A DNA stretch of 64,000 nt from Buchnera aphidicola (Tetraneura ulmi) (GTDB lineage Bacteria > Pseudomonadota > Gammaproteobacteria > Enterobacterales > Enterobacteriaceae). Both the position numbers and the translations under genes were made by a program. Below the pieces are notes generated by a model. It made no database searches and was not told the origin of the DNA. It saw nothing but the letters and a program-made list of their open reading frames with translations. Below are positions 38,457 to 64,000 of the stretch, piece after piece. Location: the NCBI RefSeq assembly GCF_964058925.1, contig NZ_OZ060366.1, forward strand, positions 162,308 through 226,307, read 5' to 3'. The stretch's first letter is position 1. Every line of letters starts with the position of its first letter.

Positions 38457-39701
38457 ATGGATATTACTGAAATTAAAATACCAGATATAGGATCAGAATC
38501 TGTAGAAGTAACAGAAATCTTGGTAAATGTTGGAGATCGAATAAAGAAAGAAGATAGTTTGTTAGTTGTAGAAGGACAAAAAACTTCTATGGAAATTCCT
38601 TCTCCTGTTTCTGGAATAATAAATAAAATTAATGTAAATATCGGTGATATGGTAAAAACTTCTACTTTAGTTATGTTTATAGAAGTAGAATGTGTTAATA
38701 ATAATAAAAAACAGTTGAAGGAGAAATATATTGATTTTTTTGAAATGTCTAAAAATAAAGATACTTTTTTAAAAAAAAAAAAAGATACACTAAATATTTT
38801 TGAGAAAAAAAATATATATACTAGTCCAATAGTTCGTCGTTTAGCAAGAATTAATGATATTGATTTATCAAAGATAAAAGGAACTGGACCTAAAAATAGA
38901 ATTTTAAAATCGGATTTATTAAAAATTATTTTAGAAAGAGAAAAAGGTTTAATTGCTTCACAAGTAGATCAGACGAAAAAAATAAATAATTTTAATTTTT
39001 CTAATTTAGATTTTAATAAAATTAAAATAAGTAAAATTCAAAAAAATATCAATATTAATTTATTAAATTCTTGGAAAAATATTCCTCATGTTACCCAATT
39101 TGATGAAGTTGATGTTACGGAATTAGAAGATTTTAGGAAAAAATATAATTTAAAATCGATAAATAAAGAAAAAAAAATAACGATTTTATCTTTTATTGTC
39201 AAAACTTTATTTATTTCATTGAAAGAATTTCCATTATTAAATAGCTCTTTATCAGAGGATGGTGATTATATTTTTTTAAAGAAGAAAATAAACATTGGAA
39301 TTGCTGTAGATACTGACAATGGATTAGTAGTTCCTGTATTAAAAAATTTAAAAAATAAAAATATTGTAGAAATATCTGAAGAAATAGTTAATTTTTCAAA
39401 AAATTCTAAATTAGGAAAGTTATTGTTTTCTGATCTTCAAGATGGAACTTTTACAGTAACTAGTTTAGGAAGTATAGGTGGGACAGCTTTTACTCCGATT
39501 ATAAATCCACCAGAAGTTGGGATTTTAGGTTTATCTAGATGTATTATAAAACCAATTTGGAATCATGATAAGTTTATTCCTAGAGTTATATTACCATTTT
39601 CTTTATCATATGATCATCAAATTATTAATGGTGCATATGCTTGTCGTTTTACTAATTTTTTTAAAAAAAATATAAATGATATTAGATTTTTATTAATGTA
39701 A
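38457..39701 (+). CDS. aceF: pyruvate dehydrogenase E2 (dihydrolipoyl acetyltransferase)
   Basis: Core of the pyruvate dehydrogenase complex. It has 414 residues against 630 in E. coli because it has one lipoyl domain instead of three: lipoyl domain (1-76, lipoylation lysine K42 in EGQKTSMEI), a peripheral subunit-binding domain (about 119-155, SPIVRRLARINDID) and the catalytic acetyltransferase domain (about 185-414). The active-site motif, consensus DHRxxDG, reads DHQIING: His387 is kept but Arg and Asp are replaced by Gln and Asn391. A 13-A tract at 38771-38783 lies in the linker with the frame intact. lpd follows. Confidence 0.96.
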   Translation: MDITEIKIPDIGSESVEVTEILVNVGDRIKKEDSLLVVEGQKTSMEIPSPVSGIINKINVNIGDMVKTSTLVMFIEVECVNNNKKQLKEKYIDFFEMSKNKDTFLKKKKDTLNIFEKKNIYTSPIVRRLARINDIDLSKIKGTGPKNRILKSDLLKIILEREKGLIASQVDQTKKINNFNFSNLDFNKIKISKIQKNININLLNSWKNIPHVTQFDEVDVTELEDFRKKYNLKSINKEKKITILSFIVKTLFISLKEFPLLNSSLSEDGDYIFLKKKINIGIAVDTDNGLVVPVLKNLKNKNIVEISEEIVNFSKNSKLGKLLFSDLQDGTFTVTSLGSIGGTAFTPIINPPEVGILGLSRCIIKPIWNHDKFIPRVILPFSLSYDHQIINGAYACRFTNFFKKNINDIRFLLM

Positions 39702-39841: not shown

Positions 39842-41266
39842 ATGTATAAAAAAATTGATACAGAAGTTGTTGTAATAGGTTCAGGACCTGCTGGGTATTC
39901 AGCTGCGTTTCGTTGTGCAGATTTAGGATTAAAAACTATATTAGTAGAACGTTATAGTAGTTTAGGAGGAGTATGTCTAAATGTAGGTTGTATTCCATCA
40001 AAATCATTATTAGAAGTTTCAAAAATTATTTCAAAAACTAAAACTGCAAAAGAGAAAGGAATTTTTTTTGAAAAACCTAAAATAGATTTATCAAATGTTA
40101 ATGAGTGGAAAAATAGTATAGTTAATCGTTTATCTAATGGTTTATCTAATTTAGCTAAAAAAAGGAAGATTCAAGTTATACAAGGAAAAGCTTTTTTTAC
40201 ATCTAAAAATTCCATTGAAATTAAGGGTTGTAATGATAATATAATTGTTAAATTTAGTTATTCAATTATTGCTACTGGATCTAGACCTATAGATTTATCT
40301 ATCTTGTCTTTTTCTAATGATTCTAGAATTTGGAATTCTACTAATGCATTAAATATTACAAAGATTCCTAGTCGTTTATTAATTGTTGGTGCTGGAGCAA
40401 TTGGTTTAGAGATGGCTACATTATATAGTTCTTTTGGTTCTAGCGTAGACGTAGTTGATACAAGTAATGAACTTTTTTCATTTTTAGATAGTGATATTGT
40501 TTCTGTTTTCGAAAATAGAATTCAAAATAAATTTAATATATTTTTAGAAACTTCTATTTTAGAAGTAAATTTTGAATCACATGGAATAAAAATTTTATTT
40601 TTAAATAAAAATAGTTCATCTAAAAATTATAAAGCATATGATGCTATATTAGTTGCAATTGGTAGAAAACCCAATAGCGAAAAATTAAATTTAAGAGAAA
40701 TTGGTATAGAAGTTGATAAAATTGGTTTTATAAAAGTAAATAATCAAATGCAAACAACAATTTCTAATATATTTTCTGTAGGAGATGTGACGGGTTATCC
40801 GATGTTAGCTCATAAAGGAATGCATCAAGCACATATTGCTGCAGAAGTAATATCAGGTAAATCCCATTTTTTCGATACCAAAATTATTCCTTCTATAATT
40901 TATACAGATCCAGAAATAGGTTGGGTAGGTTTAAGTGAGAAAGAAGCTTTGTCTTTTGGAATTGATTGTAGATCAGTTGTTTTACCATGGAATATTTTAG
41001 GAAAAGCGATATTACAAGATTCTGAATTTGGGAAAACTAAATTAATTTTTGATAAAAAAACTAATAAAATAATAGGTGGTATTGTCGTTGGAGTTAACGC
41101 AGGAGAATTATTAGGGGAAATAGGATTATCTATTGAAATGGGTTGTGATTCTGAAGATATTTCTTTAACTATTCATTCTCATCCAACTATATATGAATCA
41201 ATTGGATTATCTGCACAGATGTTTAATGGAACGATAACTGATTTATTTGTTTCAAACAAAAAATAG
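39842..41266 (+). CDS. lpd: dihydrolipoyl dehydrogenase (E3)
   Basis: Flavoprotein that reoxidises dihydrolipoamide for pyruvate and 2-oxoglutarate dehydrogenases. It has 474 residues, the E. coli length. FAD-binding GSGPAGYSAAFR is near residue 13, the redox disulfide is C45 and C50 (GGVCLNVGCIPSKS), the NAD-binding GAGAIGLEMATLY is at about 182, and the catalytic His-Glu pair is in HSHPTIYESIG. An SD AGGTGA precedes the ATG. It lies 140 bp after aceF, probably with its own promoter as in E. coli. Confidence 0.98.
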   Translation: MYKKIDTEVVVIGSGPAGYSAAFRCADLGLKTILVERYSSLGGVCLNVGCIPSKSLLEVSKIISKTKTAKEKGIFFEKPKIDLSNVNEWKNSIVNRLSNGLSNLAKKRKIQVIQGKAFFTSKNSIEIKGCNDNIIVKFSYSIIATGSRPIDLSILSFSNDSRIWNSTNALNITKIPSRLLIVGAGAIGLEMATLYSSFGSSVDVVDTSNELFSFLDSDIVSVFENRIQNKFNIFLETSILEVNFESHGIKILFLNKNSSSKNYKAYDAILVAIGRKPNSEKLNLREIGIEVDKIGFIKVNNQMQTTISNIFSVGDVTGYPMLAHKGMHQAHIAAEVISGKSHFFDTKIIPSIIYTDPEIGWVGLSEKEALSFGIDCRSVVLPWNILGKAILQDSEFGKTKLIFDKKTNKIIGGIVVGVNAGELLGEIGLSIEMGCDSEDISLTIHSHPTIYESIGLSAQMFNGTITDLFVSNKK

Positions 41267-41693: not shown

Positions 41694-42382
41694 TTAAAAA
41701 ATTATTTTTAGTATTGATGTTACTATTAAAAAAATAATTTTACTTGATTTATTAATAAAATTTTTAAAGTCATAATTGCTATTTTCATTAGCTTTGTCAG
41801 ATATGATTCTAATTGATATTAATGGAATGTGTAATACATAGCATACATGAGCTACAGCAGCACATTCCATATCAATTGCAATAGATTTTGGAAAAAAACT
41901 TTTTATTTTCTTGTTTTTTTTATTTGTTCCAACAAATGTATCTCCACTAATGATTAATCCTTCTAAAAAATTATATTTTTTTTTATACATCATTGATTTA
42001 ATTTTTTTTGTGTACGATTCATCTGTTTTAAAAAAAATTGGACAATTAGGTATTTGTCCAATGTTATAATTAAAAGTTCTTAAATCAACATCAAAATAAC
42101 TTATTTTTTTTGCAATTGCGAAATCTCCAGGATTTAATTTTTTAGTTAAAGAACCAGCTGTTCCAATATTTAAGATTAGATTTGGTTTGTATATATGAAT
42201 AAGTAATGTTGTAGCAATTGCCGAAAAAACTTTTCCAATATTTGATTTTAAGATTATAATCTTAGTGGTGTTAATTTTTCCTATATAAAACTTATAGTTA
42301 TAAATTTTTTTTTTTTTATTTTAATTTTTGTTTTTAGAGTTTTTATTTCTTCTTCCATTGCTCCAATAATTCCAATTTTCAT
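41694..42382 (-). pseudogene. mtn: 5'-methylthioadenosine/S-adenosylhomocysteine nucleosidase, frameshifted in an A13 tract
   Basis: Enzyme that cleaves adenine from methylthioadenosine and S-adenosylhomocysteine. The minus-strand frame starts at ATG 42382 (MKIGIIGAMEEEIKTL) and stops early because a run of 13 A (42304-42316 on plus as T) is one base short (or two too long): with one more A the reading continues without any stop through GTAGSLTKKLNPGD to the end at 41694. The two parts together make a full-length enzyme of about 229 residues (E. coli 232) with all catalytic residues kept: Glu12 (AMEEE), the IDMECAAVAH Glu and Asp in RIISDKA. It could be a fresh pseudogene, an assembly error in a homopolymer, or a gene rescued by polymerase slippage. 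The downstream part alone is visible from ATG 41993 (99 codons). Located between lpd and erpA. Confidence 0.85.
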
Positions 42383-42427
42383 TTTTTTTCCTGGTTATTT
42401 AATGAAATGTAATTTTATTTAAATTAT

Positions 42428-42769
42428 TTAAATATTAAAGGATGATCCACAACTACAAGTGTTTTTAGCATTAGGATTTAAAATAACAAATTTAGAACCC
42501 TCTAAATTTTCAGTAAAATCTATTTTTCCACCAGTAATATACTGTATAGTAATTGGATCTATAATTAATGAAATTCCTAATTTTTTAATTACGATATCGT
42601 CTTCATTAGTTTTTGATTCAAAGATAAATTTATATTGAAAACCTGAACAACCTCCTCCTAAAATGTAAATTCTTAATTTATTTTTTTTTTTATTATTTTT
42701 TTTAATTATTTCTTGTATTTTTAAAGCTGCTTGTTTAGTAATATTAATTAAAATGTCTTTTTGTTTCAT
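42428..42769 (-). CDS. erpA: iron-sulfur cluster insertion protein ErpA
   Basis: A-type carrier that inserts Fe-S clusters into apoproteins. It has 113 residues (E. coli 114). The three ligand cysteines are in [11 protein letters not shown] and CSCGSSF at the C-terminus. The protein is well conserved. The gene lies 45 bp before mtn and 76 bp after ftsZ on minus. Confidence 0.96.
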
Positions 42770-54530: not shown

Positions 54531-55262
54531 ATGTGTATTAAAAGGAAAAAACCTTTATATAATCGAATTTTGCTTAAAATTAGTGGTCAATCATTTCAAA
54601 AAAAAAATACAAGTATGTTTGGAATTGATATTCTTTCTATCAAAAGAATAGCTAGCGAAATTAAAGTTTTGTTAGAATGTGGAATAGAAATAGGAGTTTT
54701 GCTTGGAGGTGGAAATTTATTTAGAGGTTACGATTTAAAACAACGAGGATTAAGTAATGTAATATCCGATCAAATAGGAGTATTATCTACAGTAATAAAT
54801 AGTTTAGCTTTTAAAGATATTATTCAAAAACTATCTGTTAAGACTTGTTTAATGAGTTCTTTTCCAATTGGAAATATTACGGAAATTTATAATTATGAAA
54901 AAGCGATGGATTTGTTATCTAATAAATATGTAGTAATTTTTTCAGCTGGAATTGGAAACCCATTTTTTTCTACGGATTTAGCAGCTTGTTTGCGTGGCAT
55001 TGAAATTCAAGCTGATGTAGTATTAAAAGGTACTAAAGTAAATGGAATTTATAATTGTGATCCTGAAAAGCATTTGCCTTCTAAAATGTATAAATTGTTA
55101 AGTTATGATTTTTTATTGAAAAAAGAGTTAAAAATTATGGATATATCTGCTATTTGTTTAGCAAGGGATTATAAGATTCCTATTAGAGTTTTTAATATAA
55201 ATAAAATGGATTCTTTAATGAGAGTAGTTTTTGGAGAAAAGGAAGGAACTACCGTTATGTAA
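54531..55262 (+). CDS. pyrH: UMP kinase
   Basis: Phosphorylates UMP to UDP. It has 243 residues (E. coli 241). Amino-acid-kinase family motifs are LLKISGQSF, VLLGGGNLFRGYDL and FSAGIGNPFFSTDLAACLRG. In E. coli this enzyme is regulated by GTP and UTP. It is 95 bp after tsf and 50 bp before frr. Confidence 0.97.
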   Translation: MCIKRKKPLYNRILLKISGQSFQKKNTSMFGIDILSIKRIASEIKVLLECGIEIGVLLGGGNLFRGYDLKQRGLSNVISDQIGVLSTVINSLAFKDIIQKLSVKTCLMSSFPIGNITEIYNYEKAMDLLSNKYVVIFSAGIGNPFFSTDLAACLRGIEIQADVVLKGTKVNGIYNCDPEKHLPSKMYKLLSYDFLLKKELKIMDISAICLARDYKIPIRVFNINKMDSLMRVVFGEKEGTTVM

Positions 55263-63227: not shown

Positions 63228-64000
63228 TTATTCTTTTATTTTTTTAGTAATAAAATTTATTATATTATTTTTTTTTAAAATTTCAGAAACATGTTTTTTT
63301 CTATCTCGATATTCTATTTCTTTTTTTTTTGATAGTTTTTCACTGACTATGATTTGGTGTGGTATACCAATTAAATCCATTTCATTGAAAATAACTCCAG
63401 TTCTTTCCTTTCTATTGTCAAATAGAACGTCAAATTTATTTTTTTTTAAAATTTTATATATTTCAATAGAAATATTGTTTACTATTTTTGATTTATATAA
63501 ATTTACAGGTATAATTGCAATTTGAAAAGGGGATAAAGTATTTGGCCAAATGATACCTTTTTCATCGTGATGTTGTTGAATAATAGCACTTACTAATCTA
63601 GTTATTCCTATACCATAGCAACCCATTGTTATAATTTTTTTTATTCCACTTTTGTTTTGTATTTTAGTATTAAAAATTGATGTATATTTTTTTTTAATTT
63701 GAAAAATATGTGCTATTTCTATAGGATTATCATCGATAATTTCATATTTTATATTTTTTTTTGTTATTTTTTTTTTTGTATTAGTTTGAAATTCATGAGA
63801 AATATCACCTCCAATATGATTAGAATTTGCTTTAATTAAATTAAATTTTAATTTCATTTTTTTAAATATATTTGTATACGTATATATCATTTTTTCGTAC
63901 GTATTTTTTAAAGATGTTGAGTTTTCATGAAAAGAATAAGCATCTTTCATAATGAATTCTCTTGATCGAACAACTCCTGCTTTTGCTCGAATTTCATCTC
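63228..64000 (-). CDS. proS: prolyl-tRNA synthetase lacking the editing insertion (5' end beyond window)
   Basis: C-terminal part of ProRS. The frame runs off the right edge (DEIRAKAGVVRSREF precedes MKDAYSFHE, so the ATG at 63950 is internal). Class II motif 2/3 regions are visible: KDAYSFH, NHIGGDISHEFQ, HIFQIKKKYT, GCYGIGITRLV and the anticodon domain with FDNRKERTGVIFNEMDLIGIPHQIIV. In E. coli an editing (INS) domain of about 180 residues lies between SHEFQ and the HIFQ motif; here only about 32 residues separate them. The gap is in one open frame, so it is a real domain loss rather than a frameshift. Convergent with dnaE across 32 bp. Confidence 0.95.
   Translation of the reverse strand, partial: DEIRAKAGVVRSREFIMKDAYSFHENSTSLKNTYEKMIYTYTNIFKKMKLKFNLIKANSNHIGGDISHEFQTNTKKKITKKNIKYEIIDDNPIEIAHIFQIKKKYTSIFNTKIQNKSGIKKIITMGCYGIGITRLVSAIIQQHHDEKGIIWPNTLSPFQIAIIPVNLYKSKIVNNISIEIYKILKKNKFDVLFDNRKERTGVIFNEMDLIGIPHQIIVSEKLSKKKEIEYRDRKKHVSEILKKNNIINFITKKIKE

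Follow-up and report, generated by a model that had tools for sequence, protein, structure and literature searches.

A one-base-short A13 tract interrupts an otherwise intact mtn in Buchnera and may be partly corrected by transcriptional slippage

The mtn locus

We analysed a window of 64 kb from the Buchnera aphidicola (Tetraneura ulmi) chromosome, which is 530,976 bp long with about 23% GC and is accompanied in the assembly by two small extra contigs. The gene for MTA/SAH nucleosidase, mtn (pfs), lies on the minus strand at 41694–42382, as assigned by frame reading, profile match and structure alignment. Upstream and on the same strand is erpA, a 113-aa open frame (42428–42769). On the other side lies the convergent lpd (39842–41266, plus strand), recognized as an open frame and by gene order, and the order lpd–mtn–erpA–ftsZ is common to relatives. 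The nucleosidase gene is not present here as a single uninterrupted frame: the minus-strand frame from ATG 42382 (MKIGIIGAMEEEIKTLKTKIKIKKKKFITISFI) stops after 33 aa (42281–42382, stop included). The frame changes at a run of 13 A on the coding strand (T13 on the plus strand) at 42305–42317. The original prediction had reported both the early stop and the length of the run, and these hold, but its coordinates for the tract (42304–42316) were off by one. A tract of the same length at 38771–38783 (plus strand), inside an intact gene named aceF from gene order, stays in frame and serves as an internal control.

Reading the gene with one additional A opens it to the stop at 41694 and gives a protein of 229 aa with no other stop, so both the predicted nucleosidase of about 229 residues and the predicted lack of a second lesion were borne out. 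Reading it with two A fewer likewise opens it to 41694, giving 228 aa. The stretch after the tract (41694–42305, minus strand) is open for 204 codons (203 aa and a stop), compared with a longest open stretch of 97 codons among 2,000 shuffles, and its GC content by codon position (0.25/0.28/0.12) is coding-like. An AGGA resembling a Shine–Dalgarno motif, read from the sequence at 42389–42392 on the minus strand, is retained and ends 6 bases ahead of the ATG. The lesion is thus a single indel in an A/T run longer than about 9, with an open and conserved remainder, and it belongs to the length class that one inserted base restores. Downstream re-initiation was considered as a rescue and rejected: the long ATG frame at 41694–41993 (99 aa) lacks the N-terminal half that carries Glu12.

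Over its whole length, the read-through protein matches nucleosidase profiles above their curated cut-offs (NF004079, 232.9 bits against 169; TIGR01704, 198 bits against 73.8). It resembles the MTA/SAH nucleosidase 1jys across residues 1–226 of 229 (E = 1e-51), whereas the gene as assembled would, without slippage, yield only the 33-aa stub. We take 1jys to be the E. coli MTAN and 3bl6 to be the S. aureus MTA/SAH nucleosidase. As had been predicted, the catalytic residues are kept: Glu12 (AMEEE from residue 8), the Glu of MEC at residue 173 (MECAA from 172) and the Asp of RIISD at residue 196 (IISDK from 193), the last two of which presumably align with Glu174 and Asp197 in the numbering of the E. 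coli enzyme. A second nucleosidase could in principle cover for Mtn: this genome has one other PF01048 member, at chromosomal positions C1:482313–482897, which at a guess is probably DeoD.

mtn in other Buchnera-type genomes

The gene is in frame in all 42 other Buchnera-type genomes that possess it (G001, G002, G046 and G061, both genomes of the G020 genus and all 36 of the G075 genus), a label that rests on shared gene order where examined and on genus placement. The frameshift is therefore seen in this genome alone (1 of 43), and it is not maintained across species; maintenance across species without decay is a trait of some slippage-rescued genes. In four genomes (G008, G012, G032 and G054), mtn is absent between lpd and erpA, and a profile search of these found no remnant above noise. 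On a DnaN tree, the absences correspond to two or three changes, although they may have a single origin. Judged from these genomes, mtn is usually retained in Buchnera and sometimes lost. A scan of genome contigs returned one locus, a Borrelia. The neighbouring erpA is itself frameshifted in two genomes, at an A9 in G008 and at an A11 in G051 (possibly not a Buchnera), with opposite signs.

Long A runs are a recurrent feature of the same part of the gene. Among 35 mtn loci, 33 could be read for tract position (the motif test missed L005 and L132), and six of these 33 have a run of at least nine A starting at residues 18–30; the run in this genome begins at residue 22. Runs of at least ten A anywhere in the gene occur in 5 of the 35 loci, four of them at about residues 23–25 and all in frame (L127, A10; L131, A12; L133, A11; L138, A13), the fifth at residue 154 (L005). 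With A9 included, in-frame runs of A9–A13 recur at residues 23–25 in six loci (the four above, L136 and L143). Because runs of A10–A13 stand in frame at the same loop in four species, such lengths are nothing unusual there and leave the frame undisturbed; on these alignments, the mtn loop accumulates long A runs in several species, with the frame intact in those other than ours.

Of 34 columns that are invariant in eight other sequences, the read-through Mtn retains 29, and the five changes, all conservative, place it near the top of the leave-one-out range (0–6). In place of dN/dS, we used a protein relative-rate test with two genomes of the same genus (G001 and G002) as references, to which Mtn is 46–49% identical. 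Dividing the length of its own branch by the G001–G002 distance gives 1.14, which places Mtn 15th among 47 window genes, whose median is 1.02. Without this scaling, only one of these genes has a longer own branch than Mtn, and the G001–G002 distance of Mtn ranks eighth. By this comparison, Mtn is fast-evolving everywhere rather than accelerated on this lineage, and a recent lesion would leave no trace in the rate either way. Among window genes whose orthologues in G001/G002 have 70 aa or more, none besides mtn was listed in two-frame pieces, in a listing that covered only matches below 80%. The original prediction had also held that selection still maintains mtn. The lone lesion, the conserved residues, the in-frame copies elsewhere and the ordinary relative rate agree with this, but maintenance after the lesion is conjecture. 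Spermidine synthesis was rejected as a reason for keeping the gene, since none of the 11 Buchnera-type genomes tested has speE (it was found in 1 of the 15 genomes searched).

Two other window genes stood out. The gene at 54531–55262, probably pyrH by gene order, has an own-lineage rate 3.9 times the G001–G002 distance, the highest of the 47. At 63228–63998, residues 212–404 or so of a 566-aa orthologue are absent in frame (matches cover 141–211 and then 405–561); by eye, we take the product to be a prolyl-tRNA synthetase that lacks the inserted editing domain.

Further homopolymer frameshifts in this genome

One of the extra contigs, of 3,007 bp, is a plasmid carrying trpEG. It matches the Buchnera plasmid pBTc2 at 80% identity over 99%, and that name presumably refers to Tetraneura caerulescens. 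Published genomes of Tetraneura Buchnera measure 530,863 and 533,871 bp (PMC12243488). By pattern search, the genome has 73 A/T runs of at least 12, and 71 of these are on the chromosome. We examined all 71, and five break a gene: dnaN, mtn, acpS, rlmN and corC. An A13 is itself common in this chromosome, and a gene-breaking A13 is rare. Shorter runs, searched in about 202 kb of the 531 kb, break era and a lolE-like gene as well, so that the total of seven homopolymer frameshifts is a lower bound. All seven are one base short. In chromosomal coordinates (contig C1 of this genome, G000), the six besides mtn lie at C1:12231–12243 (dnaN, A13), C1:238721–238734 (acpS, A14), C1:239517–239526 (era, T10), C1:267689–267700 (rlmN, A12), C1:278599–278609 (lolE-like, A11) and C1:398529–398545 (corC, A17). 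The dnaN gene is single-copy here and is split only here; all 10 relatives examined carry it as one frame.

These seven come from frame scans run without the 25-aa end filter used for other genomes below; with it, corC (8 aa from the start) would fail and mtn would be at the edge. For the shorter runs, 25 candidate rows with runs of at least 8 were listed and four places inspected, of which era and the lolE-like gene were accepted; most of the remaining rows either fall on tracts already known or have an upstream frame no longer than 20 aa. Another of the four places, made up of the neighbours dnaA and dnaN, was rejected. The last, a T10 at C1:72554–72563, separates a frame of 112 aa from one of 265 aa and is a possible frameshift of the opposite sign; the longer part had no NCBIfam match.

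In the stretches covered, the share of internal coding A runs that are broken is 0 of 49 for A10, 1 of 31 for A11, 1 of 13 for A12, 2 of 16 for A13 and 1 of 4 for A14, and 30 internal coding A runs of 12–15 sit in open frames of at least 150 aa. The window holds 17.2 A/T runs of at least 12 per 100 kb, compared with 3.75 and 5.0 in G001 and G002 (80 kb each, of like GC), a density 3–5 times that of these two same-genus genomes. A loss of mismatch repair that might explain so many long tracts is unsupported, because mutS is intact. The genome also contains an A26 run (C1:357079–357104) near the 3′ end of a small frame that looks BolA-like by eye.

The sign of homopolymer frameshifts in other genomes

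We counted the sign of such lesions in about 80 kb round mtn from 22 genomes (G001, G002 and 20 of the G075 genus), defining a lesion as a gene whose tblastn matches split between two frames. This gave 66 split events supported by at least three genomes. We removed 19 rows that had no run of at least 9 in the possible interval or lay within 25 aa of an end (of these, 12 were opposite in sign to mtn and seven were alike) and two more in which the query was the lesioned copy. Of the 45 homopolymer frameshifts that remained, 41 were one base short and 4 one base long, although the rows are not independent: a single murF site supplies 12 of the 41. Counting in six of the removed rows, all at the N terminus of ung, changes the ratio to 41 to 10. 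These six genomes (G149, G156, G159, G160, G172 and G181) share an opposite-sign frameshift near aa 15–20 of ung, and in some of them an alternative ATG yields a near-full protein.

The genes in the count were identified by NCBIfam as nadK, truA, coaE, yfaE, murD, ftsW, ddlB, mutT, folC, ispE and apbE, and by our own reading as murE and murF. Genes that are essential in E. coli occur both among these (nadK, coaE, murD, murE, murF, ftsW, folC and ispE) and among those broken in this genome (dnaN, era and acpS). The same sign appears in 11 genes besides apbE and mutT, with ddlB showing both signs. Apart from the rest stand apbE, which is broken in several genomes and whose G001/G002 frames have no match in the window, and mutT, which is broken in one genome; mutT is described as lost in Ua in the available part of PMC3164680. 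Together these two genes give 4:3, against 37:1 for all others (Fisher p = 0.009, on non-independent rows and with a grouping chosen after the rows were seen). By contrast with the filtered count, six of the seven rows from a looser scan of G001 and G002 that used frames only had the opposite sign (three in apbE, one joining the ftsZ start, one beside ung and one other). In each of these two genomes the split-hit method retained a single gene: apbE, with the opposite sign, in G001, and truA, with the same sign, in G002.

The murF gene is split at one A10–A12 tract in 17 of the 20 G075-genus genomes, with both halves aligning, and is in one frame in G152, G161 and G181. From this distribution, the frameshift looks old and retained. 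The accessible text of PMC3164680 counts four independent inactivations of murF among the genomes it studied.

Discussion

Frameshifts at poly(A) tracts that are rescued by polymerase slippage are on record for Buchnera and Blochmannia (Tamas et al. 2008 and Wernegreen et al. 2010, as cited in the available portions of PMC3017870 and PMC5009743). The case of mtn resembles these in its setting, an AT-rich insect endosymbiont, and in its form, a single indel in a long A run of an otherwise intact gene. Several genes in one genome, including replication genes, were likewise affected in Blochmannia vafer, as dnaX and dnaG illustrate in the accessible part of PMC3017870. Unlike those cases, the mtn frameshift occurs in one genome and is known here from DNA alone, and mtn is not among the genes named for them in the portions of these sources that were available. 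Its lesion is of the same class and sign as those of the homopolymeric frameshift genes of Aphidinae Buchnera, such as murF, in the available text of PMC3164680, although the murF split is shared by 17 of 20 genomes and the mtn frameshift is confined to 1 of 43.

Slippage, a new break, a length polymorphism and a sequencing error were all put forward in the original prediction; all four remain candidates. We give about an even chance to the first, in which the cell needs mtn, or at least benefits from it, and tolerates its A-tract frameshift. Provided that the assembled base count is correct, RNA polymerase would slip on the A13 template and produce mtn mRNAs of mixed run length. Those with 14 (or 11 or 17) A would be translated into full-length, presumably active Mtn and the others into the 33-aa stub, so that the nucleosidase would be made at a reduced level. 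Ribosomes slipping by −1 on the AAA-AAA codons would also produce this protein, perhaps as a minor contribution. The same account would apply to the other six frameshifted genes. In endosymbionts of aphids and ants, corrected transcripts of comparable genes are reported at 12–50% (PMC5009743, in the part available), and at 30% in an earlier case (PMC3017870, likewise).

Several observations favour slippage: the lone lesion with its open, conserved remainder and retained start signal; the ordinary relative rate of Mtn (1.14 against a median of 1.02); the six same-sign frameshifts elsewhere in the genome, single-copy dnaN included; the splitting of murF at one tract in most genomes of a genus; and the one-base-short sign of 41 of 45 lesions in other genomes. 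This last point is in line with the insertion-dominated slippage measured in Buchnera, where 151 of 157 insertions among transcription errors fell in homopolymers, compared with 16 of 57 deletions (PMC5574713, accessible text). Because insertions dominate transcript errors in runs, a filter on tolerated lesions would leave those that one inserted base restores, which fits both 41:4 and the 7:0 of this genome. Other evidence points the other way. Deletions in runs, like insertions, become commoner with run length, and no transcription error that restored a frame is reported as detected in the available text of the same study. The absolute branch of Mtn is the second longest, with 5 of 34 invariant columns changed, and the looser scan of G001 and G002 was dominated by the opposite sign (6 of 7 rows). 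The need for Mtn is itself in doubt, given the four genomes that lack the gene and the absence of speE, one source of MTA, from all 11 genomes tested.

The foremost competitor to slippage, though we think it fairly unlikely, is that the true run keeps the frame and was read one base short by the assembly, in mtn and in the other six genes alike. Undercalling would make every lesion one base short, as all seven are, and would account for lesions in dnaN and era, which are expected to be indispensable (dnaN being the strongest argument), and for a broken share that climbs from 0 of 49 at A10 to 1 of 4 at A14. Two Tetraneura Buchnera assemblies were nanopore-based with Illumina polishing (PMC12243488), although the method used for this one may differ. 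Yet the same assembly holds 30 internal coding A runs of 12–15 in open frames. Six Aphidinae Buchnera have 8–18 homopolymer frameshifts, and two others have 1 and 3 (PMC3164680, available part); the seven found here, a lower bound, come just below the former range and above the latter values. The same sign dominates the counted rows in other genomes' assemblies, and independent read errors would not split murF at one tract in 17 of 20.

Less probable still, in our judgement, is a recent and unrescued lesion in a gene on its way out, as in other Buchnera lineages. That mtn has vanished between lpd and erpA from four genomes, with no remnant above noise and with two or three changes required on the DnaN tree (or one origin), shows such a course, and the restriction of the frameshift to this genome fits it; homopolymer indels in Buchnera are commonly taken as recent inactivations in the accessible text of PMC3164680. 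Against it stand the 42 in-frame carriers, the lack of a second lesion and the ordinary relative rate, and a fate particular to mtn leaves the matching dnaN lesion unexplained. Given six further frameshifts that include dnaN, plain gene loss is a poor general explanation, which leaves rescue or undercalling. A symbiont population that carries both A13 and frame-keeping lengths, of which the assembly displays one, seems to us the least probable of these readings, and a distant one. Long A runs mutate often, and the run at the mtn loop varies from A8 to A13 among species. Deep sequencing of two Buchnera revealed polymorphism for single-base indels (PMC3164680, part available), although nothing specific to this strain points to one.

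Returning to slippage as the preferred reading, the sign counts allow a more general proposal, which we consider quite possible but hold with somewhat less than even confidence. Persisting homopolymer frameshifts in needed Buchnera genes would almost all be one base short, since only that class would be readily repaired by slippage, and a standing set of core genes (dnaN, era, acpS, the lolE-like gene and mtn) would be slippage-dependent. Two other sources of the sign bias are conceivable: contraction-biased DNA (replication) slippage and, in this genome, homopolymers that were undercalled. The contrast between apbE/mutT and the other genes argues, on few data, against contraction-biased replication slippage as the sole cause. 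In the accessible literature on Buchnera mtn, slippage, Tetraneura and homopolymer deletions, we found no report of the mtn lesion or of such a rule, although the rule may be contained in Tamas 2008 or Wernegreen 2010.

Taken alone, mtn adds another case to the homopolymer frameshifts of AT-rich symbionts, and its company is of more interest. Single-copy dnaN carries the same fault, which means either that the assembly contains homopolymer miscalls in core genes or that core replication in this symbiont runs on slippage-corrected mRNA. The sign count, in turn, suggests a way to separate tolerated frameshifts from decay by genome sequence alone.
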